Origin: Bacteroidales bacterium
GTDB taxonomy: Bacteria; Bacteroidota; Bacteroidia; Bacteroidales; SM23-62
Reading direction: 5' to 3'
Length of the DNA stretch: 41,542 bases
Assembly: GCA_016783865.1 (NCBI GenBank)
Contig: JADHVS010000011.1
Location: forward strand, 1-41,542
The notes under the pieces were generated by a model, which saw only the letters and a list, made by a program, of their open reading frames with translations, was not told the origin of the DNA and did no database searches. The translations under genes were made by a program, and so were the position numbers. Below, piece by piece: positions 22,537-39,773 of the stretch (its first letter is position 1; every line of letters starts with the position of its first letter).

Positions 22537-24672
22537 ATGAAAATTCGCTGGGTTCATATTATCGGTTTGCTCCTACTGCCAATAATCTTTGTATTTGAAA
22601 GCTGTGAAAAAAAGTTTGATGAGTATTATCAGGTCCCTGATGATCTTATCGGTACCGTACTGGATGTGCTTGAGGAGGATGGTAATTATACCCAGTTTAT
22701 AAAGGCTGTTGAACTGGTGGAGTATGATGATGTGCTCGGTAAAACAGGGAATTTTACCGTTTTTGTTCCTGATGATGCTGCGTTCACAGAATTCTTCTCA
22801 GAATACGGTTACACCTCGCTGGAGGACATCCCCGATGAAGAACTGGAAGGGATCGTGTATTACCACATCATTTTCTGGGCATATTCGAAGTTCATGCTTT
22901 TATATGGTCTGGGTGTGCAGGATGTAACCATCGAGTACAGTACTCTGAACTTCAAAAAACCCACAAGGTATGTACCGCCCACTACCCTTGAGTATGATAC
23001 AATCGGCCGGAAGTATAATGTCTATCATGAACCAAAATTTATTCCGGTTTATTCAGATGAGATGTTTTCAGAATTGGAAGAGGATGCCTCTGTGAATTAT
23101 TCATTTCTATATCCCGGAAGTGTTTTCGGTGGCTTCCATGTTGACCGGGCTGAAGTTGTTGAATACGATGTCCCAGCCCAGAATGGATGGATACACAAGA
23201 TCGACAAGGTTCTTATACCCCCGGATAATCATGATCAAATTCTGGAGAAAAGGGAAGAATTCAGTATTTACAGAGAATTGCTTGAGAAAAACACCTTTTA
23301 CCAGTACAGTAGTAGCTATACAACGGCCCAGGACAATGAAGGTGATGTCGATGAGGACGGGGAGCTGGATTCATTGTTCCTGAAGATGAACAGCATTTTT
23401 CCTTTTGGAGCTTCATTGGACATCGAGAATGTATTATATGACGGACAGCAGAATATCCTGACCCTTTTTGCTCCTACCAACCAGGCCCTGCAGGATTTTA
23501 TGGCGGAACGGACGACGGGATATAATACCATAAACCAGATCGGTGAGTTCTGGATAAACTGGTATTTGGCGCACTATATTGGCGTCAACTATTGGCCATC
23601 CGGATTCAACAACCTTACAGAAGACTGGACCTGGGACCTTACATCCTCACTAGTGGATTGCAATATAACTGAAAGTGACATACACTATATCGAGGTAGCA
23701 AGTAATGGACCATTCTGCGGGATCAACAAGTACTTCCTTCCGAAAATATTTGAATCAATAGCTCAGCCGATCTTCGGTAACAGCGAGTATGAATGGTTCT
23801 GCAATATGCTGGTGTTTTACCTTGCCGACAGGTTACTCAATGAAGAGAACCTCGAGTTTACCTTGTTTGCGCCTACAAATACTGCAATTCAGAAGGCAGG
23901 TTATATTTTCAGGGGAGGATTAGGGGGATACGGATTATATGGTCCGGACCCGTTTTATCCCATTTCAAGAAAGGAGGCAACAGACATCGTGAATTCACAT
24001 ATAATTTTTGGTGAGCTATCCGGGAGCGATTTCGAGGAGGGTACTTTTATTGAGACCTCACAAAGTACTTTTCTTGCTGTGGACAACGATGGGATCTATG
24101 CTGGTGGCGACGTGACACCATCAAAAATAGGTGATTCGGAAATTGTCAGTGGCAAGGGTATCGTATATGAGATTGACAGGATGCTGGTGGCTCCTAACAC
24201 TTCTATATTTGAAGTTATTACTGATCCGGCCAACTTCCCGCAATACCAGAAGTTTTATCAGTTATGTTACACTTCGGGTTTAATAGTGCTGGATAGCGAA
24301 AACAGGCCACAAAGCCTCGATAATGTCTCTGTAGGAACCTCGTATAGTTGCTTTATTCCAACCAATGAGGCCCTGGAGGCAGGTATTGCAAACGGATCGA
24401 TACCTGCTGAATCGGATTCAATTCAGCAATTTCTGCAGTATCATTTTGTTGAAGGTGTGATCTTCCCTGATGGAGAAAAATCCGGGATATTCAATACGAC
24501 AAGAATTGATGAGGAAAGCGGCTACCTGTTCAATACTATTGAAATTTTGAATCAAAAATATGACCTGAGAATTAAGGATAACCTGGGAAACATCAGAAGT
24601 GTTGTAACCCCCAATCACATAGTGGAAGATGGAGTGATCCACCAGATTGATTCATATCTGCTGTTTAAATAA
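22537..24672 (+). CDS. Four-domain FAS1 (fasciclin) lipoprotein
   Basis: The 711-residue protein has a lipoprotein-like signal with cysteine 23 (VFESC). Four FAS1 units can be traced by their conserved boxes. The first is FTVFVPDDAAFTEF with YYHIIFW and WIHKIDKVLIP. The second is LTLFAPTNQALQDF. The third is FTLFAPTNTAIQ with GIVYEIDRMLVAP. The fourth is YSCFIPTNEALEA with GVIHQIDSYLLF. FAS1 domains mediate adhesion or ligand binding. Here the gene comes first in an operon just before SusC, which suggests a surface-exposed accessory for glycan or protein capture. No enzyme motif is visible. Confidence 0.88.
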   Translation: MKIRWVHIIGLLLLPIIFVFESCEKKFDEYYQVPDDLIGTVLDVLEEDGNYTQFIKAVELVEYDDVLGKTGNFTVFVPDDAAFTEFFSEYGYTSLEDIPDEELEGIVYYHIIFWAYSKFMLLYGLGVQDVTIEYSTLNFKKPTRYVPPTTLEYDTIGRKYNVYHEPKFIPVYSDEMFSELEEDASVNYSFLYPGSVFGGFHVDRAEVVEYDVPAQNGWIHKIDKVLIPPDNHDQILEKREEFSIYRELLEKNTFYQYSSSYTTAQDNEGDVDEDGELDSLFLKMNSIFPFGASLDIENVLYDGQQNILTLFAPTNQALQDFMAERTTGYNTINQIGEFWINWYLAHYIGVNYWPSGFNNLTEDWTWDLTSSLVDCNITESDIHYIEVASNGPFCGINKYFLPKIFESIAQPIFGNSEYEWFCNMLVFYLADRLLNEENLEFTLFAPTNTAIQKAGYIFRGGLGGYGLYGPDPFYPISRKEATDIVNSHIIFGELSGSDFEEGTFIETSQSTFLAVDNDGIYAGGDVTPSKIGDSEIVSGKGIVYEIDRMLVAPNTSIFEVITDPANFPQYQKFYQLCYTSGLIVLDSENRPQSLDNVSVGTSYSCFIPTNEALEAGIANGSIPAESDSIQQFLQYHFVEGVIFPDGEKSGIFNTTRIDEESGYLFNTIEILNQKYDLRIKDNLGNIRSVVTPNHIVEDGVIHQIDSYLLFK

Positions 24673-24682
24673 ACACGGTATT

Positions 24683-27600
24683 ATGTTGAGTAAATTCTAT
24701 ATCGTTTTTTTGATTTTAATGCTGGCCAGTCTCTATACCTATAGCCAGGATCCCACAGTCCTTAAAGGTAAGGTTGTTGATGATGTAACAGGAGAAGCTT
24801 TAATAGGTGTTACTGTAATCGAAATAAATGAACTGAACAGGTCATTAAACGGCACGGTGACCGATTTAAACGGGAACTTCGCCCTGAGACTTTCCAGTTC
24901 GAATACGATGGTTAAAATATCTTACATCGGGTTCAAAACAGAAGAGCATACCATATCCGGACAAACTTATCTGGATATTAGCCTGGAAGAAGAAACCCAA
25001 CTCCTTGACGAGGTAGTGGTAACTGCTGAAGGTAAGAAAATAGGCGGATTAAATCCCGTATCTGAAAGGGATCTCACCAGTGCCGTATCAACAATCGAAA
25101 TGAAGGAGCTTGAAGAAGTAAAGGTTTCTTCTGTAGCTGAGATGTTGCAAGGCCGTGCAAGTAATGTTGATATTTCCCTTGCGTCGGGAGATCCGGGAGC
25201 TGGTATGTCAGTAAGGATAAGGGGTACGGCCTCAATAAGCGGTTCCAATCAACCCCTGATTGTGGTAGACGGTGTTCCGTTTGAAATTGTACTGGACAAT
25301 GACTTTAATTTTTCTGCCGTCACACAGGAGCAGTTCAGCGGCCTCCTGAATATGGCTCCCGAAGATATTCTTACCATACAGATCCTTAAGGATGCTGCTG
25401 CAACAGCAGTTTGGGGCTCAAGGGGCGCCAATGGTGTGCTGCTTATTGAAACAAAAAGGGGCATAAAGGGGAAGACTAGTTTCGATTACCTGTACAAGAT
25501 GAGTATTTATCAGCAACCCAAGTCAATTCCGTTACTTAACGGTGATTCCTATTCCATGCTTATGCTTGAGGGGATTTTGAATTCCGGGTCCACGGAGATC
25601 CCACAGGAACTTGCATATAATAAGAATTGGGAGGAATACTATAATTACTCACAGAATACAAACTGGCTGAATGAAATAACTCAGACCGGAGTTGCACACG
25701 ACCATAATTTCTCACTGATGGGTGGAGGTGAAAGTGCTCTTTACAGGTTTTCGCTGGGATACCTGGATCAGGAAGGGACCACAAAAGGAACTCATTTCAC
25801 AAGATTTACATCACGGTTTAACCTCGACTACCATGTTTCACGAAAGTTGCTTTTTTCCGGAGATCTATCCTATGCGTATTCGGATAATGATCTGGCCTAT
25901 AGAGAAAGCGAAGAACATTACAAAGATTACAGGGGAGTTCGTCAATTAGCCTATATCAAGGCACCCAATATGAGTATTTATGATTTCAATCCTGAAGGCA
26001 ATCTATCGGATAATTATTTTTCACCGGGTGAGAACTTCCAGGGATCGGGATCCCGGTGGTATAATCCGGTAGCCATGGCAAACGAATCCACCTGGAACCA
26101 GAATCAACATCGTTTGAGAACAAAGCTTCATTTTAAGTATAATATTCTGGATGATCTGGTTTTTCAGAGTTTTGTTGCCTATGATATAGATAACCAGTTG
26201 GAGAATAGATTCCTGCCACAAACAGTTACAGGTCTTCACTGGACATCCACGTTTGTTAATCTTGCATCAGGTATGGATTACCAAAGTTCTGTCCTGGAAA
26301 GCCAGACACAACTGGTCCACACTTTTCTGCGTGGCAGCAAGCATAAGCTTACCTCCATGATCGCATTTACCCTCTCAGATAAAAAGAACCAATGGTATTA
26401 TGGCAGTACATCAAATATGCCGTCTTCATATCTTATCAATTATGCTCAACCAGCTCCAATCTACTGGATAGGTGACGGCTATAGCCAGAACCGGATGATA
26501 GCTTTCCTGGGATTCGCACATTACAGTCTGCTGGACAGATACCTGATCCAGTTCAATATACGAAGAGAGGGTTCATCACGGTTTGGTTATGAATCCAGAT
26601 GGGGTACCTTCCCCTCTATTTCTGTTGCCTACAGAATATCATCTGAGCCATTTATGAACGGCATTGAGTTTCTAAATGATCTGAAGCTGAGGTATAGTTA
26701 CGGTGTAAACGGTAACCAGCCCAGCGGGAGTTACGGGTATTTCAATCTCTACAGCACCGGACAGGAGTATATTGATATGGCCGTTGTAATCCCGACCAAC
26801 CTGCAACTCGATCATTTCCGTTGGGAGAAGAACTCACAGATCAATTACGGACTCGATCTTTTTGCATTTAAAAATTACCTGGAATTTCATTTCGATGTAT
26901 ATAATCAACACAGTAAGGATCTGATCTGGGAAAATCTTAGATTGCCTTCCACTTCGGGTTTTTCAAATATTACCAGGAACTGGGGATCAATGGATAATAA
27001 GGGCTGGGAGGTCATGTTTGCTACAGATATCCTAAGGAGGGAAAAGTTCAATTTCAATGTCAATTTCAATATTGCGCATAACGAAAATAAGATTACCGAG
27101 ATCCCTGAGAATTTCGATTTCGAATTCGGATCTGAGGCCATTAACGGGGAATATGCCCGAAGAGCAGTTGAAGGCCATCCAATAGGCTCATTCTACGGAT
27201 TCAAATATTTAGGTGTATATCCGACCGATGCCGATGCTACAGCACATGACGCAGTCGGGAACATAATATATGATATGGGGGGATATCCACTGTACATGAG
27301 GTATGGAAATGCGGATGGGTATCGATTCAGAGGTGGGGATGCGATTTATCAGGACATCAATCACGATGGCTTGATAAATGAACTGGATATCGTAAAGCTG
27401 GGTGATTCAAATCCAAGATTCCTGGGAGGATTCGGTTCCAAATTGACCTGGGGAAACTTCATTACCACATTTTTCTTTCATTACCGACTGGGACAAGACA
27501 TTGTTAACAAAACCAAAATGAACAATGAGAATATGTATTACAGGTATAACCAGAGCGTATCAGTGCTTAACCGCTGGAGAAGGCAGGGAGATATTACTGA

Positions 27601-27907
27601 TATTCCCAGGGCACTTTATAATCAGGGTTATAACTGGCTTGGTTCTGACCGTTTTGTAGAAGATGGTTCGTTTGTCAGATTCAAGAGCGCCAGCATCAGC
27701 TATAGTTTCAAGGATCTGGCGAACAGGATCAAGCTAAAGGGTCTTAAACTTCATTTTATGGTGTACAACTTGTATACATGGACTTTGTATACAGGTGTGG
27801 ATCCTGAGGTCCCTATGCTAAGCAATGATCCCTTTTTTATAGGACTAGACAAAGCTGATACACCTCCTCCGATGAGTTATATATTTAGTTTAAATGTGAA
27901 GTTCTGA
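24683..27907 (+). CDS. SusC/RagA-family TonB-dependent outer-membrane transporter (first)
   Basis: ATG 24683 is preferred to ATG 24647. The upstream start overlaps the FAS1 gene and adds 12 polar residues, whereas 24683 gives a normal signal peptide ending near YSQ. The 1074-residue protein has a carboxypeptidase-regulatory-like domain (about 20-110, VLKGKVVDDVTGEALIGVTV), then the LLDEVVVTAEG segment. The plug carries VSVRIRGTASISGSNQPLIV and AAATAVWGSRGANGVLLIET. A 22-strand barrel follows, ending in an aromatic-containing VKF. With its SusD partner it would import oligosaccharides into the periplasm using TonB energy. There is no STN domain, so sigma/anti-sigma signalling is unlikely. Confidence 0.95.
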   Translation: MLSKFYIVFLILMLASLYTYSQDPTVLKGKVVDDVTGEALIGVTVIEINELNRSLNGTVTDLNGNFALRLSSSNTMVKISYIGFKTEEHTISGQTYLDISLEEETQLLDEVVVTAEGKKIGGLNPVSERDLTSAVSTIEMKELEEVKVSSVAEMLQGRASNVDISLASGDPGAGMSVRIRGTASISGSNQPLIVVDGVPFEIVLDNDFNFSAVTQEQFSGLLNMAPEDILTIQILKDAAATAVWGSRGANGVLLIETKRGIKGKTSFDYLYKMSIYQQPKSIPLLNGDSYSMLMLEGILNSGSTEIPQELAYNKNWEEYYNYSQNTNWLNEITQTGVAHDHNFSLMGGGESALYRFSLGYLDQEGTTKGTHFTRFTSRFNLDYHVSRKLLFSGDLSYAYSDNDLAYRESEEHYKDYRGVRQLAYIKAPNMSIYDFNPEGNLSDNYFSPGENFQGSGSRWYNPVAMANESTWNQNQHRLRTKLHFKYNILDDLVFQSFVAYDIDNQLENRFLPQTVTGLHWTSTFVNLASGMDYQSSVLESQTQLVHTFLRGSKHKLTSMIAFTLSDKKNQWYYGSTSNMPSSYLINYAQPAPIYWIGDGYSQNRMIAFLGFAHYSLLDRYLIQFNIRREGSSRFGYESRWGTFPSISVAYRISSEPFMNGIEFLNDLKLRYSYGVNGNQPSGSYGYFNLYSTGQEYIDMAVVIPTNLQLDHFRWEKNSQINYGLDLFAFKNYLEFHFDVYNQHSKDLIWENLRLPSTSGFSNITRNWGSMDNKGWEVMFATDILRREKFNFNVNFNIAHNENKITEIPENFDFEFGSEAINGEYARRAVEGHPIGSFYGFKYLGVYPTDADATAHDAVGNIIYDMGGYPLYMRYGNADGYRFRGGDAIYQDINHDGLINELDIVKLGDSNPRFLGGFGSKLTWGNFITTFFFHYRLGQDIVNKTKMNNENMYYRYNQSVSVLNRWRRQGDITDIPRALYNQGYNWLGSDRFVEDGSFVRFKSASISYSFKDLANRIKLKGLKLHFMVYNLYTWTLYTGVDPEVPMLSNDPFFIGLDKADTPPPMSYIFSLNVKF

Positions 27908-27920
27908 AAATTAATTGAAA

Positions 27921-29456
27921 ATGAACAAATGGCCCAGATATATCCTGGTGATTATCACGTTAAACCTCTATACTGGATGTTCCGAGTGGCTACAGCTTGA
28001 ACCTGAAAGTCAGCTGATCAGGGAAGAGTTCTGGCAATCAGGCGATGATGTCCAGGCTGTTGTTGCCGGAACATATAAAGAATTGGCAGGAGTCGTGGAA
28101 AAATTGTTTAAATGGGGCGAACTCAGGGGGGATCTTTTTATTCCGGGCCAGAATATAAATCCTGATGACAGGAGGATAATGGACGGTTTTATTTATCCGG
28201 AGAACGAGCTCAATAAATGGGGCCAGCTGTACCGGACCATAAATTTTGCCAATACGGTACTTAAATTCTCTCCCATAGTTATTGAGCGGGACCAGACATT
28301 TGATGAGAACGAAAGCAAAGCATTTGAAGCGGAAGCGCTGTTCCTCAGAAGCCTTTGCTATTTCTATCTTGTCAGGATATTCAGGGATATTCCATTAATA
28401 CTTGAAGCTTCAGAAAACGATGCACAGAATTATTATCCTGAAGTCAGTTCTGAACAGGAGATATTCCTTCAGATCATTGACGATCTGCAGATTGCCGTGG
28501 AAAATTTACCAACCTCCTATGCGAAAACAGAATATGACAAGGGAAGGGCAACTAAATCAGCCGCATATGCCCTGATGGCGGATGTATACTTGTATTTTGA
28601 AAAGTACCAGGCCTGTATCGATGCATGCAATCAGGTAATAGGCAGCGGATTATATGGAATGATTGACGGGGAAGACTGGTTTATGAATTTCTTTCCAGGG
28701 AATTCCAACGAGAGTATTTTCGAGATCCAGTTTGACAAAGAACTTAATCAGACCAATCTATTGTATCAGATGATGGCCCCTTATCCGAGAGATGGAACAT
28801 ATCCCGATGGGCATGATGAATTCAGGGTATCCCCTTATTTCGTGACTGAATTTGAAAAGTTTCCGGGTGACAGGAGAGCAGGGAACAGAACTTACATGAC
28901 CTATACGGGTGGAGGATGGTATATTTATGCAACATCACACGTATTATGGAAGTATGTTGGTACGGAAGGCATCCCGAGTCTTGTCACAGGAGCTTCAGCA
29001 AGTGGATACAGAATTGGGAACATGGAAAGCGATGCCAACTGGATTGTTTACCGCTATCCTGATATCCTTTTAATGAAAGCAGAGGCTCTGGTCCAGCAAG
29101 GTGAATACGGGCAGGCTGTCCAGCTTATAAATCAGGTAAGACTGAGAGCGTTGATAGAACCAATTGCAGATATTTCCAGTAAAAATGAACTTGAAGATAT
29201 CATATTAGAGGAGAGAGCAAAGGAATTTTGCGGAGAGGGTAAGCGTTGGTTTGACCTGATCCGGTTTGGAAGAAGAAATAATCTTGAAAGAAGGGATCGG
29301 TTCACTGAAATTCTTGCTGACAATAAATCTTATGAGGAAGCTGAAGTCATCAGGAGCAAATATTCAAATCCTGACAGCTGGTATCTTCCAATACATCAGG
29401 ATGAGATTGACCAAAATAATAAACTGGTACAAAATCCATACTATATTAACCAATAG
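27921..29456 (+). CDS. SusD/RagB-family surface lipoprotein (first)
   Basis: ATG 27921 is preferred to the TTG two codons upstream. The 511-residue protein has a lipoprotein signal with cysteine 20 (LYTGC). It shows the alpha-helical SusD scaffold: FWQSGDDVQAVVAGTYKEL near the N-terminus, LRSLCYFYLVRIFRDIPLI, and KSAAYALMADVYLYFEKY. The C-terminal ERAKEFCGEGKRWFDLIRFG is followed by the usual SWYLPI ending. It is the glycan-binding lid of the SusC barrel directly upstream, with 13 bases between the genes. The ligand is unknown. Confidence 0.95.
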   Translation: MNKWPRYILVIITLNLYTGCSEWLQLEPESQLIREEFWQSGDDVQAVVAGTYKELAGVVEKLFKWGELRGDLFIPGQNINPDDRRIMDGFIYPENELNKWGQLYRTINFANTVLKFSPIVIERDQTFDENESKAFEAEALFLRSLCYFYLVRIFRDIPLILEASENDAQNYYPEVSSEQEIFLQIIDDLQIAVENLPTSYAKTEYDKGRATKSAAYALMADVYLYFEKYQACIDACNQVIGSGLYGMIDGEDWFMNFFPGNSNESIFEIQFDKELNQTNLLYQMMAPYPRDGTYPDGHDEFRVSPYFVTEFEKFPGDRRAGNRTYMTYTGGGWYIYATSHVLWKYVGTEGIPSLVTGASASGYRIGNMESDANWIVYRYPDILLMKAEALVQQGEYGQAVQLINQVRLRALIEPIADISSKNELEDIILEERAKEFCGEGKRWFDLIRFGRRNNLERRDRFTEILADNKSYEEAEVIRSKYSNPDSWYLPIHQDEIDQNNKLVQNPYYINQ

Positions 29457-29461
29457 GAGAT

Positions 29462-31006
29462 ATGAACAGGTCAAGTGGTGATATAATAATTCTGTTACTG
29501 TTCACAGCTGCTGTATATACGCTTTGTATAAGCTGCCAGGACAAAGAACCGCTTGAAGTATTTTTTGAAGAGGATGAAATGCTTATATCAGCTTATCTTG
29601 AGAAGCATTCGGAGGATTATTCCACGCTGATCAGGATACTTGAGATTACAAACCTAAAGTCAACCCTGAATGCATACGGCCATTATACATTTTTTGCACC
29701 GGATAATGATGCGTTCCAGGAATTCTTTGCACAGCAAGGTAAATCCACCGCTGAAGAATTTGATCCGGGTTACCTGGCAACGCTGATCCGGTATCACCTG
29801 CTCGACATTGAAATTGAAAGCTCATACTTCAGGGATGGTGTTATTCAGGATACCACCTATTCAGGGGATCACCTGGTCATTACATTTTCTACAGGAGGAC
29901 TTGAAACAATTATGGTCAATGATGCAAGTATCAGTGAGCGTGATATTCATGTCGAAAATGGCCTTATTCATAGAATTAACGGAGTTCTTACTCCGATTAT
30001 CGGATCCATCGTGGATCGGCTCAGGGAATTTGAGGAGTACAGGATCTTTACTGATGCACTTGATATTTCCGGGCTCTCTGACAGCCTGAACATTATCAGG
30101 ATTGATCTTAATGAAGATATTTTTATCCGAAGCAGGTTCACAATTTTCGTTGAATCGGATGAAGTTTATAAACAGGAAGGGATAAAAAATGCAAACGATC
30201 TCGTTGCAAAGTATTCGGATACAGGTGATCCCACAGATGAGGATAATGGATTTTATCAGTTTATGGCCTATCACATTATTCCAGGTCTGCATTATCTGAA
30301 TGAGATCGATTCATTCAATTATCCCACACTGGCAGAAAACCAGTTGATCAATGTAAGAATAACCGAGAATATTTACCTGAACTCGAAAGGTGGGGACGGG
30401 GGTGTGCAGCCGGCGGAGTCATCCGTAATGGTAATTGAAGGGCAATCAAACCGGCAGGCCAAAAATGGTGTATTTCATGAAATCGACCATCTTCTGGAAC
30501 CCTTGTTACCTCCTCCTGTTTACCTGGTTGTGGATCTAACGGATTACCAGGGCATTTCCATCGGAAAAGATTATTCTGAAAAAGATCTGGAGGATATTCC
30601 GGGTTTATCTTCCGAACATACGGGTATTTACTTCAGGAACTCCATCCTGGGCGATGGTGAAACCAACCTGCAGACCACCAGTAACAGTGCTGGCTGGATG
30701 GTTGAATTCGAATTAGCTCCCATCCTGCGTGGCAGATACGATGTTTACCTGCATTTTGCCAGTCATCGAACCAATACAAATCAGGTACAGGGATTCTGGG
30801 ACGAAGCACGATTCGGGGGTATCCAGGACTTTCAGCATCAGAGGAGAGATCCTGAAGCGGGTTCATGGCTTAGGGATTTCAATACGAATAATTATATCGG
30901 GAGGCTTCTTTTAACAGAGACTGCAACCCACACCATAAAGTTTATAGCCCTGGGAGGTGGTTTTGGAAATTTTGATTACCTGGTATTCCAGCCGATAGAA
31001 GATTAG
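29462..31006 (+). CDS. FAS1 lipoprotein with C-terminal sandwich domain, copy A
   Basis: The 514-residue protein has a lipoprotein signal with cysteine 25 (CISC) and an acidic stretch after it (EVFFEEDE), like surface-export signals of Bacteroidota lipoproteins. FAS1 unit 1 covers about 40-180 (YTFFAPDNDAFQEFF, GLIHRINGVLTP). A second, more divergent unit covers about 185-350 (RFTIFVESDEVY, FMAYHIIPGLHYLNEI, GVFHEIDHLLEP). Residues about 355-514 form a predicted beta-sandwich of unknown family (GRYDVYLHFASH, FGNFDYLVFQPI) that looks like a carbohydrate-binding fold. The gene starts 5 bases after the SusD stop and ends 1 base before its paralogue. Confidence 0.85.
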   Translation: MNRSSGDIIILLLFTAAVYTLCISCQDKEPLEVFFEEDEMLISAYLEKHSEDYSTLIRILEITNLKSTLNAYGHYTFFAPDNDAFQEFFAQQGKSTAEEFDPGYLATLIRYHLLDIEIESSYFRDGVIQDTTYSGDHLVITFSTGGLETIMVNDASISERDIHVENGLIHRINGVLTPIIGSIVDRLREFEEYRIFTDALDISGLSDSLNIIRIDLNEDIFIRSRFTIFVESDEVYKQEGIKNANDLVAKYSDTGDPTDEDNGFYQFMAYHIIPGLHYLNEIDSFNYPTLAENQLINVRITENIYLNSKGGDGGVQPAESSVMVIEGQSNRQAKNGVFHEIDHLLEPLLPPPVYLVVDLTDYQGISIGKDYSEKDLEDIPGLSSEHTGIYFRNSILGDGETNLQTTSNSAGWMVEFELAPILRGRYDVYLHFASHRTNTNQVQGFWDEARFGGIQDFQHQRRDPEAGSWLRDFNTNNYIGRLLLTETATHTIKFIALGGGFGNFDYLVFQPIED

Positions 31007-31007
31007 T

Positions 31008-32546
31008 ATGGAATGGAATTATAAAAATAGGATCCTGATATTACTCGTGTCACTGACATGTATAATGCTACAGAACTGCAAGGAAGAGGAGCCGTTGGAG
31101 GTTTTCTTTGAAGAAGAGGAATTACTGATCTCGGCCTACCTGGAAGAACATAATGATGTTTTTTCATCGCTTATAAAAGTATTGGAGATAACGGAATTGA
31201 AGAATACCCTTAATGCATACGGTCATTATACTTTCTTTGCCCCCGATGACAATGCCTTCAAGAAATTCTGTGAGGATAATGGAAAAAGTTCAATTGAAGA
31301 ATTCGAAAAGGAATATCTGGTAACGCTGGTTAAATATCACTTGATTGATGTTAAACTGGAAAGTTCCTATTTCAGGGATGGGGCAATTCAGGATACTACC
31401 TATTCCGGTGATTACCTTGTTATTACTTTCTCCGAAGGTGGCCTCGTAACGATACTGGTCAATGATGCCCTCATTACGGATCGTGATATTAATGTTGAAA
31501 ACGGGATCATACACGCAATAGACAAGGTGCTCACTCCATTGGTAGGCTCTATCTTCGACCGAATACAGGAATTTGAGGAATTTAGTATATTCAGTGAAGC
31601 CCTGGAAATCACAGGGCTCGATGACACTTTAGACCTGATCAGGATCGATCTTAACAAGGATATATTTATCAGAAGCAGATTCACAGTGTTTGCCGAACCA
31701 GATTACATATATAAGGAAAATGGGATAGCTACGGTAAGTGACCTCGTTGGAGTGTATTCAGATACGGATGATCCTGCAAATAGAGAAGACGGCCTGTATC
31801 AATTTATGGCCTATCACATTGTACCCGGCTTGCATTACCTCAATGAGATCGATTCTTTTAACTACCCTACCCTGGCTGAAAATATGTTGATCAATGTGAA
31901 GCTTGAAAACAAAGTCCTATTGAACTGGCACCAGGAAGAAGCGGGCGGACAGTTGACCGAAAAATACGTTACTATAGTCGAGGAAAATTCCAACCAGCAG
32001 GCCAAGAACGGGGTATTGCATGAGATCGATAACATGTTGGAACCCTATGTGCCAAACCCTGCTCATTTGATTATTGATCTTACTGATTATCAGGGTCTTA
32101 GCATTGGGGAGTCCTACTCCGAAAAAGACATTGAGGATATCCCGGGTATTTCATCTGAGAGAACTGGTTTGCTGTTCCGAAACTCGATCCTGGCTGATGG
32201 TGAGACCAACCTGCAGACGACAAACAATACTGCGGGCTGGGAAGTTGAGTTCGAACTGCCACCCATCCTGCGTGGCAAATACGATGTCTACCTGCACTGG
32301 GCCAGTCATCCTATAAATACAGGATCAGCACAGGGATTCTGGGATGGAGCACGTTTCGGGAGCCTGTTCAGTTTTGTACACGGTAAGCGATGGCCTGGCG
32401 TGGAATGGAAGTATGATTACAATACGAGTTTTTACATGGGCAGATTACTGCTAGCAGAAACCGGGACTCACAAAATAAGATTTATATCCCTGCAGGATGG
32501 TTACGGTAATTTTGATTACCTGGTATTCTGGCCGATAAAGGAATAA
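31008..32546 (+). CDS. FAS1 lipoprotein with C-terminal sandwich domain, copy B
   Basis: The 512-residue protein aligns along its full length with the gene just upstream. Shared segments include EPLEVFFEE, TLNAYGHYTFFAPD, ESSYFRDG, HYLNEIDSFNYPTLAEN and DGETNLQTT. It has a lipoprotein cysteine at residue 24 followed by KEEE, a good match to the K-(D/E)-(D/E) surface-export signal. The same two FAS1 units and C-terminal sandwich are present. The variable parts lie mostly in the second FAS1 unit and the loops near VLLNWHQEEAGG. This is a diverged tandem duplication, which may broaden ligand range. Confidence 0.85.
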   Translation: MEWNYKNRILILLVSLTCIMLQNCKEEEPLEVFFEEEELLISAYLEEHNDVFSSLIKVLEITELKNTLNAYGHYTFFAPDDNAFKKFCEDNGKSSIEEFEKEYLVTLVKYHLIDVKLESSYFRDGAIQDTTYSGDYLVITFSEGGLVTILVNDALITDRDINVENGIIHAIDKVLTPLVGSIFDRIQEFEEFSIFSEALEITGLDDTLDLIRIDLNKDIFIRSRFTVFAEPDYIYKENGIATVSDLVGVYSDTDDPANREDGLYQFMAYHIVPGLHYLNEIDSFNYPTLAENMLINVKLENKVLLNWHQEEAGGQLTEKYVTIVEENSNQQAKNGVLHEIDNMLEPYVPNPAHLIIDLTDYQGLSIGESYSEKDIEDIPGISSERTGLLFRNSILADGETNLQTTNNTAGWEVEFELPPILRGKYDVYLHWASHPINTGSAQGFWDGARFGSLFSFVHGKRWPGVEWKYDYNTSFYMGRLLLAETGTHKIRFISLQDGYGNFDYLVFWPIKE

Positions 32547-32551
32547 TATAA

Positions 32552-34033
32552 ATGAAAAAAGTCGTTAAATATATTATTAAAAACCTGGCTGCGATAATGG
32601 TAGTCATGGCAGCGATCATGTTGATTGATTCATGCAATTTGAATGACGAGTGGGATAAATACTATGAAAACGCACCGGAGCGGACAGGTGAAAACGTGCT
32701 CACCATTATTGTGGAAAATGAAAACTACAGTCATTTCTACAATGCCCTGATTGAATACGGTTTTGAGACATTGCTTTCCAAGAATCAGTATTTTACAGTA
32801 TTTGTACCTATCAATTCAGCTTTCGAGGGACTGCCTGACTATACCGATGAGGAATGGACCGGAATTCTCGGTTTCCATATCATTTATGCGAAGCTCTTGT
32901 CCCATGAATTTTCTGATCTTGATCTTATGACAACAATGGGAAAGTATCTCAAAATGAAAACAGGTACAAATAATGAAGTTACAATCTTCGAATCCGCCAT
33001 TAATATGGACGAAGTGGATAACTACTGCCGGAATGGGGTCATCCATGAAATTGATAAATTACTTGTGCCCATGCCAAATATATATGAATACATTATGGAC
33101 CTGGACTCGTCATTCAGTATTCTGCAGGATTTTATTCTCTCAATGGATGAACGATTTATTGATTATGAGAATAGTGAAAGATTAGGCGTGGATGATAACG
33201 GTGATGCCATCTATGATACCGTGTGGATAACGGAAAACTATTTCCTCGATAAGATTGCCGGATTAAAAAACGAATCAGAGGCATATACTGGATTTATTCC
33301 CAGGAACAATAATGTTCGTGAAGCCCTGAGTATGGTTGATGAGTATTTTGGAAACATAGAGGAATTGGATGAGACAGCGTACAGCCAGTTATTGTACATC
33401 ACATTCAGCGGAAGTTTCATGAAAGAAGCATATTTCCATGCAAATTTACCGGATTCTATTGTATCTGTGACTGGAAAGAAGTACGAAAAGTCAATTCTGA
33501 GCTTCAATCAGACAGACCTGGTACTGAGCAATGGAATGGTGCATATGTTAGACGGTATGACAATACCAAAGAGTTTTTTCTTGCTGCCCATTGTAATTGA
33601 GTGTGACCGGAAACAAAACAGGAAAGTTTCGAATACCATTTATCCCATTGAAGTGAAAAGTGACACCCGGGCTACAAATGGTTCATTCGTTTTCTATGGC
33701 TGTGCGTTTGTTGGAGATTACATTGAATACACTGTCGATATGGTTCTGAGGACCAAATACTGGTTCATCTGGACCGGACCCAGGCAGGGGCCCTCTACTT
33801 ATCAGTTATCGATAAAAGATGAAATTACCGGAGAATTCGTCTATCTGGGGGATCCTGTAAATAATTGGACGAAAGGATGGTTCATTCCTGTAGAGGGAGG
33901 ATCATATACATTTAATGAATTCGGCACAAAGACTGTCAGGATAAACATTGTGGATGAATTACCAGTCGTGGGACTTAATTCAATTTATATTGATTACATA
34001 AAATTGGTACCGGATGAAGTTTATAATCAATAG
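32552..34033 (+). CDS. Two-domain FAS1 lipoprotein with C-terminal beta-sandwich
   Basis: The 493-residue protein has a lipoprotein signal with cysteine 28 (LIDSC). FAS1 unit 1 (about 45-185) shows FTVFVPINSAFEG, ILGFHIIYAK and GVIHEIDKLLVP. Unit 2 (about 190-350) is more diverged (YTGFIPRNNNVREAL, GMVHMLDGMTIP). Residues about 360-493 form a galactose-binding-like sandwich (FVGDYIEYTVDMVL, NSIYIDYIKLVP) different from that of the two preceding FAS1 proteins. It starts 5 bases after them and overlaps the second SusC by 20 bases, which implies tight translational coupling with that transporter. Confidence 0.85.
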   Translation: MKKVVKYIIKNLAAIMVVMAAIMLIDSCNLNDEWDKYYENAPERTGENVLTIIVENENYSHFYNALIEYGFETLLSKNQYFTVFVPINSAFEGLPDYTDEEWTGILGFHIIYAKLLSHEFSDLDLMTTMGKYLKMKTGTNNEVTIFESAINMDEVDNYCRNGVIHEIDKLLVPMPNIYEYIMDLDSSFSILQDFILSMDERFIDYENSERLGVDDNGDAIYDTVWITENYFLDKIAGLKNESEAYTGFIPRNNNVREALSMVDEYFGNIEELDETAYSQLLYITFSGSFMKEAYFHANLPDSIVSVTGKKYEKSILSFNQTDLVLSNGMVHMLDGMTIPKSFFLLPIVIECDRKQNRKVSNTIYPIEVKSDTRATNGSFVFYGCAFVGDYIEYTVDMVLRTKYWFIWTGPRQGPSTYQLSIKDEITGEFVYLGDPVNNWTKGWFIPVEGGSYTFNEFGTKTVRINIVDELPVVGLNSIYIDYIKLVPDEVYNQ

Positions 34034-37000
34034 GAGCAAATACCATATTTTGACATTACTAATAATGGTATTTCTGAGCAATCTGACGATACTCGGACAG
34101 AATAATACGGTGACCGTCAAGGGCCGGATTTATTCTGCAAAAACAGGGATGCCATTGGGTGACATTGGAATAAATGCTGCAAATGCTCCGGTTGAGCCGG
34201 TCAGGACAAACCAGGAGGGCGAATTTGAGATTACACTACCCAGCAGGAATGAACAAATCCATATATCATATCCCGGTTATAAGGATAAAACAATATTTGT
34301 TAATGGCAGGGAAGAAGTTGAGATATGGTTGCTTGGAGAGGATGAAATTTCAGTCAGCAATGCAACACGCATGATTTTCAGGGAGGTGCCACTGAAGGAT
34401 ATACCGGCCGCTATTGATGCTGGCAATCTGGTTGAATTTAACAGATCCACTAACACTTCATTTTGCCAGGATCTACAGGGGATGATGGGTGGTCTGAATG
34501 TAATCAACCGATCGGGAATGCCGGGTGAGGGAGCATTCATGTATACAAGAGGTTATTCTTCATTATTCTCTTCCTCCAACCCGTTGGTTGTTGTGGATGG
34601 AATGCTCATCAGATCGGAAGGTTTTGACAATCCTGTTACCAACGGATTTCATCATAATTCCCTGGTGGATATTGATAAAAGAGATATTTCAGGTATTACT
34701 TTGTTGAAGGATGCAGCAAGCTGTGGGCCATACGGTGTAAAAGCCTCAAACGGTATACTACTGATTTCTACAATTCCACCAAGAGGAGGTAAGACAACAC
34801 TTGATGTCTCCGTGTCAGGAGGAATATCAACTACACCATCACAAATACCGGTAATGGATGCCAGCCATTACAGTTCTTATATCATGGAGCAATTGTATGA
34901 TGCAGGGATGGCCAGTGAAGAAATTTTTAAGGCATACCCCTTTCTGGAATTTAATCCTGAGTATTTCTATTATCCACGCTATAACAATAATACAAATTGG
35001 CAGAATGAAATCTTCAAAACAGGGAAACTTTATGATGCACACCTGATCGTTAGAGGTGGAGATGAACGCGCCAAGTATTCCCTATCGGGTGGATACCTGA
35101 TGAATGAAGCGATATTGAAAAACACTTCTTACAGCAGGTTTAATTTCCGATTCAATTCTGTTGTCCAGGTTTCCCCAAAATTTGATATCGGATTTAATCT
35201 CGGCTACACAAGTGGTCGGTATAACCTAATGGAAACCGGCGCTTCACCTCAGACAAATCCCATATTTGCCAGTTTGATCAAATCACCTCTGCTAACTGTT
35301 TACCAGAAAGACCAGGAAGGAATAAACCTGCCGGTTTATGATGATGTTGCTGATTTTGGATACAGCAATCCCTCAGTTATTGTAAATGAAGTGGAGGCAT
35401 CCGATGCTACATCAAAATTCCTTGGCGTTTCTTACTTACAACTGAAAATTACTAATCAACTGACCGCACGGGTGCAGTTTGGGTTGGACAGGCTTAAGTC
35501 AAATGAGAGGATATTTCTGCCTTCATGGGGTATGGCCAACCAGGGAGATGGATCAGCAGAGAGGTCCATGAAGGTAAAAGTGGATCAGTATTTCTCAATT
35601 CTGAGCGAGGCAGGGATCAATTACCAGAACCGGTTCAATTACATTCACGACCTCTCCCTTGATGCCGGGGCCCGGTACATGGTTAACAGGCTTGCCCAGG
35701 ACTTTGGCGCTTCACAGAATTCGGCAACCGATGAATTCAAGGATCTGAATTCCGGAAAGGCTGATGAAAAGTCTGTTGGAGGATTTGAAGAAAAATGGAG
35801 CTGGTTAAATTATTACGTGTCCGGAAATTATATTTTGAAAGACCGATACCTGCTTTCAGCAAATCTCTCCGTGGATGCATCTTCCAAATTTGGCAATGAA
35901 GTGCTGGATGGTATATCAATGGCAGGATATCCTTTCGCAGTCCTGCCATCGATAGGAATCGCCTGGAGGATATCCTCAGAATCCTTCATGCAGGATATTA
36001 AATTCCTGGACGAACTGAAGTTTAGGGTATCTTACGGATTGACAGGCAGCGATGATTTTATTAATTACTATACCAGGTTGTATTACTCCACCATTCCTTA
36101 TTATTCAATTACAGGATTTCACCTGAACGGCCTTTTCAATCCCGGATTAAAATGGGAGGTGGTAAAACAAAGTAATATTGGACTTGACCTGGCCCTTTTC
36201 AGAGAGCGGCTGATACTGAACGCAGATTGGTTTAAGGCCCTGACCGAGGATATGATAACATATGTGTCATTACCAACTTATTATGGATATGAATCCTATG
36301 CCTCCAACGGGGGATCCTGCCAGAATACCGGTTTTGAGGTTAGTATTTATGGAAAATTGATTAACAGGACGTTTAAATGGGAGGCTGATGCCAGAATTTC
36401 AAAATACGATAACAAAATCATCACACTTGAGAATAATGAGGTCATCACAACCTTTACGGGAGGAGAAAAGATCACCCGGGCAGGGGATCCCATGGGATTG
36501 TTCTACGGATACAGGGCAGAAGGTGTCTTTGATTCACAGCAACAGGCGGATGAGGCAAATCTTCTTGATAAGTCCGGACGAATGTTCAATGCCGGGGATA
36601 TCCGTTTTGCTGATCTTGATGGTAATGGGATCATTGATGAACAGGATAAAACCATTATTGGCAATCCTCATCCCGATATCGTCGCCGGCCTTTATAATAA
36701 ATTCTCCTATAAGGGTTGGGCATTGAGTTTATTTGTCCAGGGCGTAAATGGTGTTGATGTTTTTAATTACATCAGATCGCAAGCTGAATCAATGACCGGT
36801 GTTGAGAATCAAACGACAGCAATTTATAACCGGTGGACCACCAACGGACAACAAACAAATATCCCCAGGGCAAGTTATGGAGATCCAATGGGGAATAACC
36901 GGTTTTCAACCCGCTGGATTGAAGACGGATCCTATATCAGATTAAAATATGTTACAATTTCTTATACTTTTCCAGGGAAACTGGCATTTATTGAAAACCT

Positions 37001-37160
37001 GAACGTATATATAACTGCTGCAAACCTTGTTACATGGACAAAGTATCTTGGTTATGATCCGGAATTCAGCTATGCGGATGGGGTTCTCGGTCAGGGGATC
37101 GATTACGGGAAAATCCCGCAACCCCGCTCAATGGTTATCGGGTTAAAGGTTGGCTTATAG
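34014..37160 (+). CDS. SusC/RagA-family TonB-dependent transporter (second, divergent)
   Basis: The 1048-residue protein begins inside the end of the FAS1 gene and has a signal peptide ending near ILGQ. It has a regulatory-like N-terminal domain (VTVKGRIYSAKTGMPLGDIG) and a plug with FMYTRGYSSLFSSSNPLVVV, GITLLKDAASCGPYGVKASN and GILLIST. The barrel ends in MVIGLKVGL. The usual DEVVVTA-type segment between the two domains is missing; EDEISVSNATRMIF is found there instead, along with cysteines in the plug. It is a clear SusC, but from a different branch than the first one. It probably pairs with the SusD directly downstream. Confidence 0.93.
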   Translation: MKFIINRSKYHILTLLIMVFLSNLTILGQNNTVTVKGRIYSAKTGMPLGDIGINAANAPVEPVRTNQEGEFEITLPSRNEQIHISYPGYKDKTIFVNGREEVEIWLLGEDEISVSNATRMIFREVPLKDIPAAIDAGNLVEFNRSTNTSFCQDLQGMMGGLNVINRSGMPGEGAFMYTRGYSSLFSSSNPLVVVDGMLIRSEGFDNPVTNGFHHNSLVDIDKRDISGITLLKDAASCGPYGVKASNGILLISTIPPRGGKTTLDVSVSGGISTTPSQIPVMDASHYSSYIMEQLYDAGMASEEIFKAYPFLEFNPEYFYYPRYNNNTNWQNEIFKTGKLYDAHLIVRGGDERAKYSLSGGYLMNEAILKNTSYSRFNFRFNSVVQVSPKFDIGFNLGYTSGRYNLMETGASPQTNPIFASLIKSPLLTVYQKDQEGINLPVYDDVADFGYSNPSVIVNEVEASDATSKFLGVSYLQLKITNQLTARVQFGLDRLKSNERIFLPSWGMANQGDGSAERSMKVKVDQYFSILSEAGINYQNRFNYIHDLSLDAGARYMVNRLAQDFGASQNSATDEFKDLNSGKADEKSVGGFEEKWSWLNYYVSGNYILKDRYLLSANLSVDASSKFGNEVLDGISMAGYPFAVLPSIGIAWRISSESFMQDIKFLDELKFRVSYGLTGSDDFINYYTRLYYSTIPYYSITGFHLNGLFNPGLKWEVVKQSNIGLDLALFRERLILNADWFKALTEDMITYVSLPTYYGYESYASNGGSCQNTGFEVSIYGKLINRTFKWEADARISKYDNKIITLENNEVITTFTGGEKITRAGDPMGLFYGYRAEGVFDSQQQADEANLLDKSGRMFNAGDIRFADLDGNGIIDEQDKTIIGNPHPDIVAGLYNKFSYKGWALSLFVQGVNGVDVFNYIRSQAESMTGVENQTTAIYNRWTTNGQQTNIPRASYGDPMGNNRFSTRWIEDGSYIRLKYVTISYTFPGKLAFIENLNVYITAANLVTWTKYLGYDPEFSYADGVLGQGIDYGKIPQPRSMVIGLKVGL

Positions 37161-37179
37161 TTATCTAATCAGGTAAATT

Positions 37180-38739
37180 ATGAAGTTCAAAAACATATTG
37201 TTCCTGTCAGGCAGTCTTTTAGTTATCGTGCTGCTCATTTCATCCTGTGAAAAAATGCTTGAATTGCCAAATGACAGCCTATTGCCGGAAGATAAGGCCT
37301 TCGTTGATGAATTTTCAGCACGATCATCTGTCATTGGTGTATATGCTTTGTTGCAGGATGTTGCCCAGCAGATTATAATTCTGGGTGAACTACAGGGTGA
37401 TCTTCTTACGGTAACCAAGAATGCAGATAATGATCTTAGGCAATTGAATGAGCACAGGGCAGATGTAACAAATATATATGCAGATCCTTCAGCATTTTTT
37501 AAGGTGATCGTGAATTGCAATGAGGTATTGCATAAAATTCACCGCGCCAGGGAATACGATGAAAATATCTCTGAACTGGAACTGGCCACCTATATGGCTG
37601 AATTAAAGCTTATACGTGCATGGGTCTATTTTAAAATGGTCCAGATTTATGGTCAGGTTCCTTATTTCGAGGAGCCTTTGAGTAATTATAACCAGAGCCA
37701 GGCACTGAAATCAAAACTCGATTCATTGCAAACAGAAGATTATATTCTTGATACATTACTGGCACAGATCATTGAGGTAGATACATTTGAGCTGAACATG
37801 CTGGAAGAGAGTCCATTTTTTGCCATACGCTTCAACAAATTCACAAACTGGGCCATCCAGGGAGATATCTACCTCTGGAGGAATAATTATTCCCAGGCAA
37901 GGGTAACCTATGACAGGGTTGCTGATATCATGGCCAATGAAGGATTTGCCGGAACCACACGCTTGCCTTATTTGAGCACCTTCAATTTCCAGGATGTGAA
38001 CTGGAAGGATATTTTTCAATTCAATTACAGTTCCGGGCCTTTTGAGACCCTGGCCATTCTGGTGGTCCCATTCTCAAAGCTCTACAATCAGCAGCATTCC
38101 CTGCAACGCATGTTTATATATGGTGAAGGAGGGGAATACCTGGTCAGGCCCACAGAATATATATTAAATGCATACCAGGCTCAGCAGGTAATCAGATATG
38201 AAGTCCAGGTGGATCATGAAAGGGGCGCACCGGGAGACCTGAACAGGGGGAAAGGTGTGACCTATGACAGTATTAATGGCCGTCCAGTGGTGTATAAATA
38301 TTCATTGTTCCGGGAACCGTTTGATAATGATGCCGGCATTCTTGTATACAGGACTGCAGATTTTCATTTGAAGACCTGTGAAGCATACGCAAGGCTCAAA
38401 CAGACAAAGGATGCGCTTGCACATCTGAATGAAGGCACCCTATATAAATCTGCCTGGGGAACAGGTACCCGAACCAGGGCAAATGTAACAAGTGTTAGTG
38501 TAGAAGATCTGCGATTTGTTGACCCGGTGGAAGACCTGATTGTTGAGGAGCGTGCCCTTGAGCTTGCCTATGAGGGACACAGATGGTTTGATCTCATGCG
38601 GATCGCCAGGCACAGGGATGACCCGGGGTACCTGGCGGATAAAGTGGCGGCCAAGTTCACCGATGAACAGAAGCGTGAGGAAGTAAGAAACCGCCTAATG
38701 GATGTAAATAACTGGTACCTGCCTTTAAAGCTGAAATAA
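37180..38739 (+). CDS. SusD/RagB-family surface lipoprotein (second)
   Basis: The 519-residue protein has a lipoprotein signal with cysteine 23 (LISSC). SusD features include VDEFSARSSVIGVYALLQDV, ELKLIRAWVYFKMVQIYGQV, and the C-terminal ERALELAYEGHRWFDLMRIA before NWYLPLKLK. It follows the second SusC by 19 bases and would form its lid. Sequence is only distantly similar to the first SusD, in keeping with two transporters for different fragments of the same glycan or for two glycans. Confidence 0.94.
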   Translation: MKFKNILFLSGSLLVIVLLISSCEKMLELPNDSLLPEDKAFVDEFSARSSVIGVYALLQDVAQQIIILGELQGDLLTVTKNADNDLRQLNEHRADVTNIYADPSAFFKVIVNCNEVLHKIHRAREYDENISELELATYMAELKLIRAWVYFKMVQIYGQVPYFEEPLSNYNQSQALKSKLDSLQTEDYILDTLLAQIIEVDTFELNMLEESPFFAIRFNKFTNWAIQGDIYLWRNNYSQARVTYDRVADIMANEGFAGTTRLPYLSTFNFQDVNWKDIFQFNYSSGPFETLAILVVPFSKLYNQQHSLQRMFIYGEGGEYLVRPTEYILNAYQAQQVIRYEVQVDHERGAPGDLNRGKGVTYDSINGRPVVYKYSLFREPFDNDAGILVYRTADFHLKTCEAYARLKQTKDALAHLNEGTLYKSAWGTGTRTRANVTSVSVEDLRFVDPVEDLIVEERALELAYEGHRWFDLMRIARHRDDPGYLADKVAAKFTDEQKREEVRNRLMDVNNWYLPLKLK

Positions 38740-38783: not shown

Positions 38784-39773
38784 ATGCTTATGAAAACGAA
38801 ACAAGTACTATTGTCAACGATGATCCTCCTACTAGCCGTAGGATGGCAGGTTCCTGTCCAGGCACAGGATATACCTGTAAATTACACCCAGAATCCAAAC
38901 ATGGAGCATGATCTCAACTCTATATTCTGGTATGGTGGGTGGGATGCGAATAACGGATCGAACGGCATCGCAGCCTTTCCATCACAATATCTGACTAACT
39001 CAGAGTCCCATTCCGGGGACTGGAGTCTTTATTTCTTTGCTCAATGGCATTACATATGGGTTTCATATCCCGTCAGGGGCCATGAGCAGAAAAGAATGAA
39101 GGCCAGTTTCTGGTATAAGGGCAGTCTTATGTCTTACTGGAATTTCATCTACCGTGACGTAGGGATGACGGAGGAGGATCTGCATCCATCACTGGCTGAA
39201 TACGTAGGAGCAGATACCGCATGGCATCACATAGATGGTCAGAACGCGATGAGGTTTGACTTAGGCGGACCCGATGACTGGACGGAGGACTGGACTTATT
39301 TTGAATTTGTGTGGGATATGCCGGGAACAATACCAGGATGGGGAAATACTGCCATGTGGTATGCTGATGTTCCGGAAGCCTGGGTTGATGACCTCTACTA
39401 TGGAGAATGGTACGACGGTTGGTATTCAGGGGAGGAGCCATTCGGATTTATCAACGGGGATTTTGAAATGACCGGATTGCCCACGGAATGGTTGGTAAAT
39501 GTAGCTTACTGGGATAATTATTTTCTAAACAGTGACTTCTTATCATGGACGGAGAACCATTCACCGGAACCGGGCCTTCAGAGTTTGCGCCTGATGGATT
39601 ACTGGGAGGTATTCCCCGACACGAATGATGTTGTAGCACCTTATGATTCCATTGCCCAGGATACATCCTTCATGGATAAGGATGTAACCTACTACCTCCC
39701 TGCACTTAACGCTGAAGGGAAAGATATGGAATTAAGGGCTTGCTCAAAATTAATTTCCGAATTTAGTATTTAA
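38784..39773 (+). pseudogene. Secreted protein with repeated CBM-like domains, cut by an IS
   Basis: The frame encodes 329 residues with a signal peptide ending near VQAQ; ATG 38790 is an alternative start. I do not recognise a named family. It holds two related beta-sandwich units. The first (about 30-215) has NPNMEHDLN, SGDWSLYFFA and KRMKASFWYKG. The second starts at FGFINGDFEM and reaches EGKDMEL, where the first unit would continue SFWYKG. At that point the sequence changes to RACSKLISEFSI and stops. The switch coincides with the onset of AT-rich DNA of the insertion sequence, so the gene is probably interrupted. The position after SusD suggests a surface glycan-binding protein. Confidence 0.65.

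Follow-up and report, generated by a model that had tools for sequence, protein, structure and literature searches.

The 41,542-nt contig JADHVS010000011.1 of a Bacteroidales bacterium (GCA_016783865.1), here called the window, carries at positions 22537..38739 a module of eight genes in which four lipoproteins with fasciclin (FAS1) domains are interleaved with two complete SusC/SusD pairs. We consider it fairly likely that this module is the outer-membrane core of a glycan importer of the polysaccharide utilization locus (PUL) type with two SusCD transporters, in which lipoproteins combining FAS1 domains with a carbohydrate-binding module (CBM) stand in for surface glycan-binding proteins (SGBPs). 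This reading is based on a tight run of genes, the fixed places of the FAS1 genes, co-inheritance, and a CBM fold that is predicted by structure models for two of the FAS1 proteins, Fa and Fc. The same order of seven or eight genes is found again in scattered genomes of Bacteroidota, suggesting that the module is a sugar-uptake machine of a distinct type. New are the FAS1-CBM accessory lipoproteins of the PUL core and the obligate-looking double SusCD; the PUL type itself is known.

The eight open reading frames (ORFs) all lie on the plus strand. Their order had been predicted as FAS1, SusC, SusD, three times FAS1, SusC, SusD, and this is borne out by the ORF list and by family assignments with Pfam and NCBIfam. 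From 5' to 3' we designate the genes F4, C1, D1, Fa, Fb, Fc, C2, and D2. The spacings from F4 to D2 are −26, 7, 5, 1, 5, −20, and 19 bases, and 275 bases devoid of genes precede F4. F4 (22537..24672) codes for a 711-aa lipoprotein with four FAS1 stretches (Pfam PF02469, E 1.9e-41). C1 (24647..27907), the ORF start of which overlaps F4, codes for a SusC/RagA TonB-dependent transporter (TIGR04056, 771.7 bits at an NCBIfam cut-off of 368; nearest solved chain 8aa4, a SusC homolog, E 7.2e-125). A second SusC/RagA transporter is encoded by C2 (34014..37160), the ORF start of which overlaps Fc (656.1 bits at the same cut-off; 8aa4, E 9e-112). The solved chains nearest to C1 and C2 (8aa4 and 5t3r) carry the name SusC homolog. 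Each transporter gene is followed by a gene for a SusD lipoprotein, D1 (27915..29456; Pfam PF07980, E 3.1e-39; PF14322, E 2.3e-22) and D2 (37180..38739; PF07980, E 4.9e-17; PF14322, E 2.7e-09), and both proteins exceed the PF07980 cut-off. According to NCBIfam and Pfam, the module thus contains two of the adjacent SusC/SusD pairs by which a PUL is recognized. Between the two pairs lie the lipoprotein genes Fa (29462..31006), Fb (31008..32546), and Fc (32552..34033). Scans for promoters (39 vs. 45.2 expected) and terminators (12 vs. 12.8 expected) were at chance level, and the window has neither an Rfam match nor a tRNA.

A contig search for which 30 Fa/Fb relatives had been aligned returned seven loci from metagenome-assembled genomes (MAGs) named Bacteroides sp. 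(six) or Bacteroidales bacterium (one), two of the loci (L003 and L006) being contigs of a single MAG. The gene order is kept in all seven up to the contig ends. Because the same order recurs across contigs of multiple genomes, a chance arrangement or a misassembled contig can be ruled out. Fa and Fb, which are 64% identical, are both present also in L002 and L003. They seem to stem from a tandem duplication among the close kin of the window, judging from the single gene that L004, L005, and L007 have in this place. A FAS1 search of the genomes of these seven loci led to more distant modules in which the order is likewise kept, either whole or cut by a contig end (L038-L043, L045-L047, and L049-L051); Fc is missing in L039, L047, and L051.

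We searched 395 genomes, all from the phylum to which genome G006 belongs, with profile A3, built from 12 F4-type proteins. This yielded 12 full-length matches (E <= 3.6e-97; next match 8.9e-22) in 10 of these genomes. With the Fb-type profile A2, there were 13 full-length matches (E <= 2e-90; next match 7e-33), located in exactly the same 10 genomes. These counts refer to the best two candidates per genome at most for A3, and the best three at most for A2, so that extra copies may escape them. Proteins used to build A2 and A3 came from four of the 10 positive genomes (G006, G041, G071, and G046); the other six contributed none. All 12 scored full-length F4 loci lie in module order, which upholds the original prediction of a distinct type of uptake locus with a conserved gene order. 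SusC and SusD in the fetched loci were called by phmmer with the window proteins, a procedure that very divergent ones could escape. The F4/Fb-type FAS1 family is nearly always found within the module, and two exceptions were met. In L044 (6954-10307), an F4-type gene and a shorter FAS1 gene are oppositely oriented; a two-component sensor and a type-IX-tailed protein are encoded nearby, and the F4-type gene has no SusC/SusD match beside it. The Fb-type gene of L048 likewise has no SusC/SusD match beside it; its neighbor on the other strand is TonB-receptor-like with a Plug domain and was detected by Pfam alone.

Position matches and gene trees show that divergent members of the phylum have inherited the module as a whole. 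We compared 16 modules, including that of the window and two close relatives, which had been chosen as complete from F4 to C2 (D2 is absent from L042 and cut in L091, and C2 is cut in L087). For the FAS1 proteins, 641 of 651 comparisons gave a best match in the equivalent position, with Fa and Fb treated as one position and 39 further comparisons lacking Fc. The corresponding numbers are 471 of 480 for SusC and 424 of 450 for SusD, after exclusion of 15 D2 comparisons without a counterpart. Trees of the seven parts have 5-10 of 9-13 splits in common pairwise, compared to a maximum of 2-4 in 500 label shuffles. In the SusC tree, the 16 C1 and the 16 C2 sequences each form one group with a support of 99-100. 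With SusC1 of the window as query in the 10 positive genomes, the C1 proteins of modules scored at least 637 bits, and all others listed scored at most 433 bits. The best match outside a module (L125) is followed by SusD and a FAS1 lipoprotein. With SusC2 as query, 11 matches had at least 582 bits, compared to 417 bits for a non-module SusC; the SusC2 proteins of L051 and L092 (330 and 358 bits) fall within the range of other SusC proteins and are set apart by the trees alone. L051 and L092 are divergent modules without Fc, and their short SusC2 mainly lacks N-terminal stretches (about residues 20-88 and 109-147 of the window protein). A link between the loss of Fc and the lost loops of SusC2 was not seen.

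The two SusCD pairs could instead transport separate products of a single polysaccharide as two independent homodimers, with the FAS1 genes merely co-transcribed. We regard this as rather unlikely, although it survives better than the other alternatives. Two SusCD pairs in one PUL have been reported elsewhere (PMC10199937), and SusC1 and SusC2 are separate old clades. Their grouping as sisters had a support of 98 when 14 other SusC proteins were included but did not resolve with 25 (approximately unbiased test, p-AU 0.554), and is not claimed here. Against full independence, none of the 12 scored F4 loci lacks SusC2, and the two halves of the module give concordant trees; as the 16 modules compared by position were preselected to extend from F4 to C2, they do not provide a separate test of the SusC1-SusC2 pairing.

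It is also unlikely that the FAS1 proteins act as adhesins or as matrix-binding lipoproteins which are co-regulated with the importer and anchor the cell on a polymer or glycoprotein without delivering sugar. Tandem FAS1 adhesion proteins are known from eukaryotes (periostin and TGFBIp), which are not known to be linked to a transporter. The FAS1 genes of the module are interleaved with both SusCD pairs, and positional orthology as well as matching gene trees link them to the transporters; fixed places like these between SusC and SusD genes would not be needed by an adhesin. In a report on one symbiont, a FAS1 transcript and a PUL with two SusCD pairs are both mentioned, their adjacency is unstated, and FAS1 is interpreted as serving adhesion (PMC10199937).

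The preferred reading, in which the FAS1 proteins take the place of SGBPs, draws on their domain composition. Pfam detects four FAS1 stretches in F4, two each in Fa and Fb, and one in Fc, with family scores of 64.3 to 141.5 bits (Pfam cut-off 22). The structure model of Fc has a second, FAS1-like domain, so that a FAS1 pair extends up to about residue 342; the expected total of about ten FAS1 units in four lipoproteins agrees with this. PF02469 is the only family found in the four proteins with Pfam at E <= 0.1, and NCBIfam has no match at E <= 0.01. As there is thus no match to a SusE/SusF family at these thresholds, they are not members of SusE/F even though they occupy the corresponding places, as had been proposed; they may work like SGBPs nonetheless. 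An N-terminal hydrophobic stretch with a cysteine is found in all four. In the alignments, this cysteine either never varies or is conserved to at least 90% (Cys23 of F4 is invariant in the 12 rows of A3), and a pattern-based lipobox scan overlooked several alignment rows. This conserved cysteine and the gene position next to SusD are what is expected of an SGBP, with lipidation as a prediction only.

The anticipated additional C-terminal beta-sandwich in three of the proteins was recovered with a carbohydrate-binding fold in the single-chain models of Fa and Fc (mean predicted local distance difference test scores of 84.1 and 85.3) and, through its identity to Fa, is expected in Fb. It corresponds to 30506..30997 in Fa (residues 349-512), to 33578..34021 in Fc (residues 343-490), and, as placed by homology to Fa, to about 32055-32540 in Fb. 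The modeled domains of Fa and Fc have the fold of CBM6/35/84-type modules, with matches to the xanthan-binding module MiXBM (7ehg), which we take to belong to family CBM84, and to CBM6/CBM35. They are 14-24% identical to MiXBM. CBM sequence families gave no match in Pfam at E <= 0.1, where the presence of a CBM84 model was not checked. MiXBM, CBM6, and CBM35 are attached to an enzyme, whereas the CBM of Fa and Fc lies behind a FAS1 pair in a lipoprotein. Two tryptophans of Fa, W412 and W469, do not vary across the 30 aligned sequences. In the close relatives L004 and L007, the CBM and the first FAS1 domain are equally conserved (0.65-0.74 vs. 0.56-0.73). In distant modules, the CBM is less conserved (mean 0.19 for Fb and 0.17 for Fc) than the first FAS1 domain (0.33 and 0.25), which would fit a CBM that changes with the substrate. 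The models point to the CBM-like domain as the putative glycan-binding part. The reverse assignment, with a ligand (glycan, hydrophobic, or protein cargo) bound by the FAS1 parts and a merely structural CBM-like tail, seems improbable to us. It would suit F4, which consists of FAS1 only, and the fold matches include FAS1 domains linked to a ligand, namely carotenoid (8c18 and 22iy) or, by its name "hyaluronic acid receptor", stabilin-2 (5n86). The further idea that FAS1 serves as a lid of SusC was dropped because both SusD proteins are present to fill that role.

For an importer with FAS1-armed receptors, we infer surface position, binding, and docking as well as the role of F4. Fa/Fb and Fc would be located at the cell surface, with their FAS1 pairs either docked onto the SusCD complexes as arms or serving there as spacers. 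Their CBMs would catch glycan chains and hand them to SusD and SusC, in the role of SGBPs of the SusE/F type, and F4, which has its four FAS1 stretches but lacks a CBM, may act as a scaffold or bridge. The substrate would be cleaved by enzymes encoded in the flanks. By analogy to the levan and dextran utilisomes (PMC7618045), SusD would be the lid and the extra lipoproteins would sit on the lip of SusC. A bolder version, which we think doubtful, is a hetero-dimeric utilisome: SusC1D1 would pair with SusC2D2 rather than form homodimers, with F4 as the bridge and Fb/Fc as shared FAS1-armed CBM receptors, and this fixed seven-part chassis would be re-used for different glycans across Bacteroidota. 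A utilisome as a stable complex of all outer-membrane parts of the PUL would be a prediction from gene linkage and matching trees.

Like the module, the levan and dextran utilisomes of Bacteroides thetaiotaomicron have a SusCD core with surface lipoproteins encoded beside it; they have one SusCD pair and a surface glycoside hydrolase (GH), whereas the module has two pairs and no surface GH lipoprotein inside (PMC7618045). The levan SGBP has two N-terminal Ig-like spacer domains and a C-terminal binding domain (PMC7618045). The predicted architecture of Fa, Fb, and Fc is alike, with FAS1 instead of Ig-like spacers. The starch utilization system (SusCD, SusE, SusF, and SusG) also has two or more accessory lipoproteins; the module differs by the FAS1 fold in place of a SusE/SusF family match, by the FAS1 protein ahead of SusC1, and by the second SusCD pair (PMC7618045). 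In Gramella portivictoriae, a figure legend for a cellulose/hemicellulose-like PUL lists a "FAS1 domain protein", so that a FAS1 gene shares a PUL with SusD there too; the section considered neither proposes a role for FAS1 nor describes a double-SusCD FAS1 module (PMC4891872). Within the accessible portions of the open-access PMC literature on FAS1/fasciclin with SusCD, PUL, or TonB, on utilisomes, and on two SusCD pairs, we found no description of the module, and the same applies to those of PMC2668756 and PMC7661554.

The FAS1 relatives that were found bear only names like "fasciclin domain-containing protein" or "uncharacterized surface protein with fasciclin repeats". If our reading is correct, a FAS1 family with a CBM fold belongs to a glycan importer as an obligate-looking component, which would provide a testable function for many such proteins in environmental Bacteroidales. 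FAS1 would then join Ig-like spacers as a way of building a surface glycan receptor, and the question is raised why two SusCD pairs travel together.

The expectation that FAS1 genes adjoin SusC/D in related genomes holds for the FAS1 family of the module but not for FAS1 in general. A general linkage was rejected because only eight of 43 other FAS1 loci (nine of 49 FAS1 positions), which were hand-picked from search rows and are not a random sample, have SusC/D within 2 kb; four of the eight are from a single genome, G046. Among FAS1 loci outside the module there is a looser theme, a single SusCD pair with one FAS1 protein directly or one gene after SusD. The order is SusC-SusD-FAS1 (about 480 aa) in L125, L128, and L129, SusC-SusD-TIG-FAS1 in L136, and SusC-SusD-DUF5017-FAS1 in L147, and a shorter FAS1 protein follows SusD in L053, L126, and L127. 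FAS1 may also serve other outer-membrane barrels, since the FAS1 lipoproteins of L145 and L146 are encoded near a TonB receptor with an FecR_C domain and OMP_b-brl_4 barrels; a DUF4397 protein is found there as well.

Upstream of the module (279-22261), the window has a dense cluster of carbohydrate genes, including two inner-membrane carriers (SSF and GntP), and carbohydrate-active enzymes are a further mark of a PUL. Pfam assigns a GH43-CBM6 protein, a deacetylase, two GH2 proteins, and a Glyco_hydro_cc protein. By PDB match, there are beta-agarase-like, arabinofuranosidase-like, and lacto-N-biosidase-like proteins, which presumably represent GH50, GH51, and GH136. The other genes code for a DUF5107-TPR protein, the SSF symporter, an FAD oxidoreductase with a golvesin domain, and the GntP permease. 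The nearest chains of the GH43 protein are xylosidase/arabinofuranosidase, and another gene is nearest to beta-agarases. The enzyme signals are mixed (galactan, xylan, and arabinan), and these neighbors suggest a complex, perhaps galactose-containing, polysaccharide as candidate substrate. A hybrid two-component system (HTCS) regulator is encoded upstream of F4 in L004 and L007; neither an HTCS nor another dedicated regulator was detected among the window ORFs scanned.

In L007 and its continuation L115, D2 is followed by genes for a 750-aa type-IX-tailed protein, a lacto-N-biosidase-like homolog, a GH2, and a glyoxalase, and further on for a DUF5107-TPR protein, a deacetylase, an FAD oxidoreductase, and another GH2. 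The window and L007 thus have several cargo genes in common, which are differently arranged, as the same kinds of genes lie upstream of the module in the window and downstream of D2 in L007/L115. Other modules are accompanied by PL4 and GH2 (L113), GH5-CBM6 on the other strand (L117), GH2 and an AA12-like protein (L111), a weak beta-helix match and a LamG protein (L112), a SASA/GDSL esterase (L110), or BNR proteins (L118 and L119), with a sulfatase in L118. BNR proteins are encoded downstream of both the L051 and the L092 modules, with a sulfatase on the L092 side. The module core is constant and its cargo is variable.

The gene after D2 (38784..39773, plus strand) is the truncated start of a protein of about 750 aa, intact homologs of which follow D2 in L004 and L007 and end in a type IX secretion tail (Por_Secre_tail). 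Its product is 63% identical to the L007 protein over 315 alignment columns, after which homology ends at about residue 317 (about 39.74 kb). Beyond this point are an ORF of 260 aa and, reaching past the window end (41542), an ISAZ013-like transposase; a mobile element has thus probably broken this gene. A transposase is also located beside the L086 module (L106).

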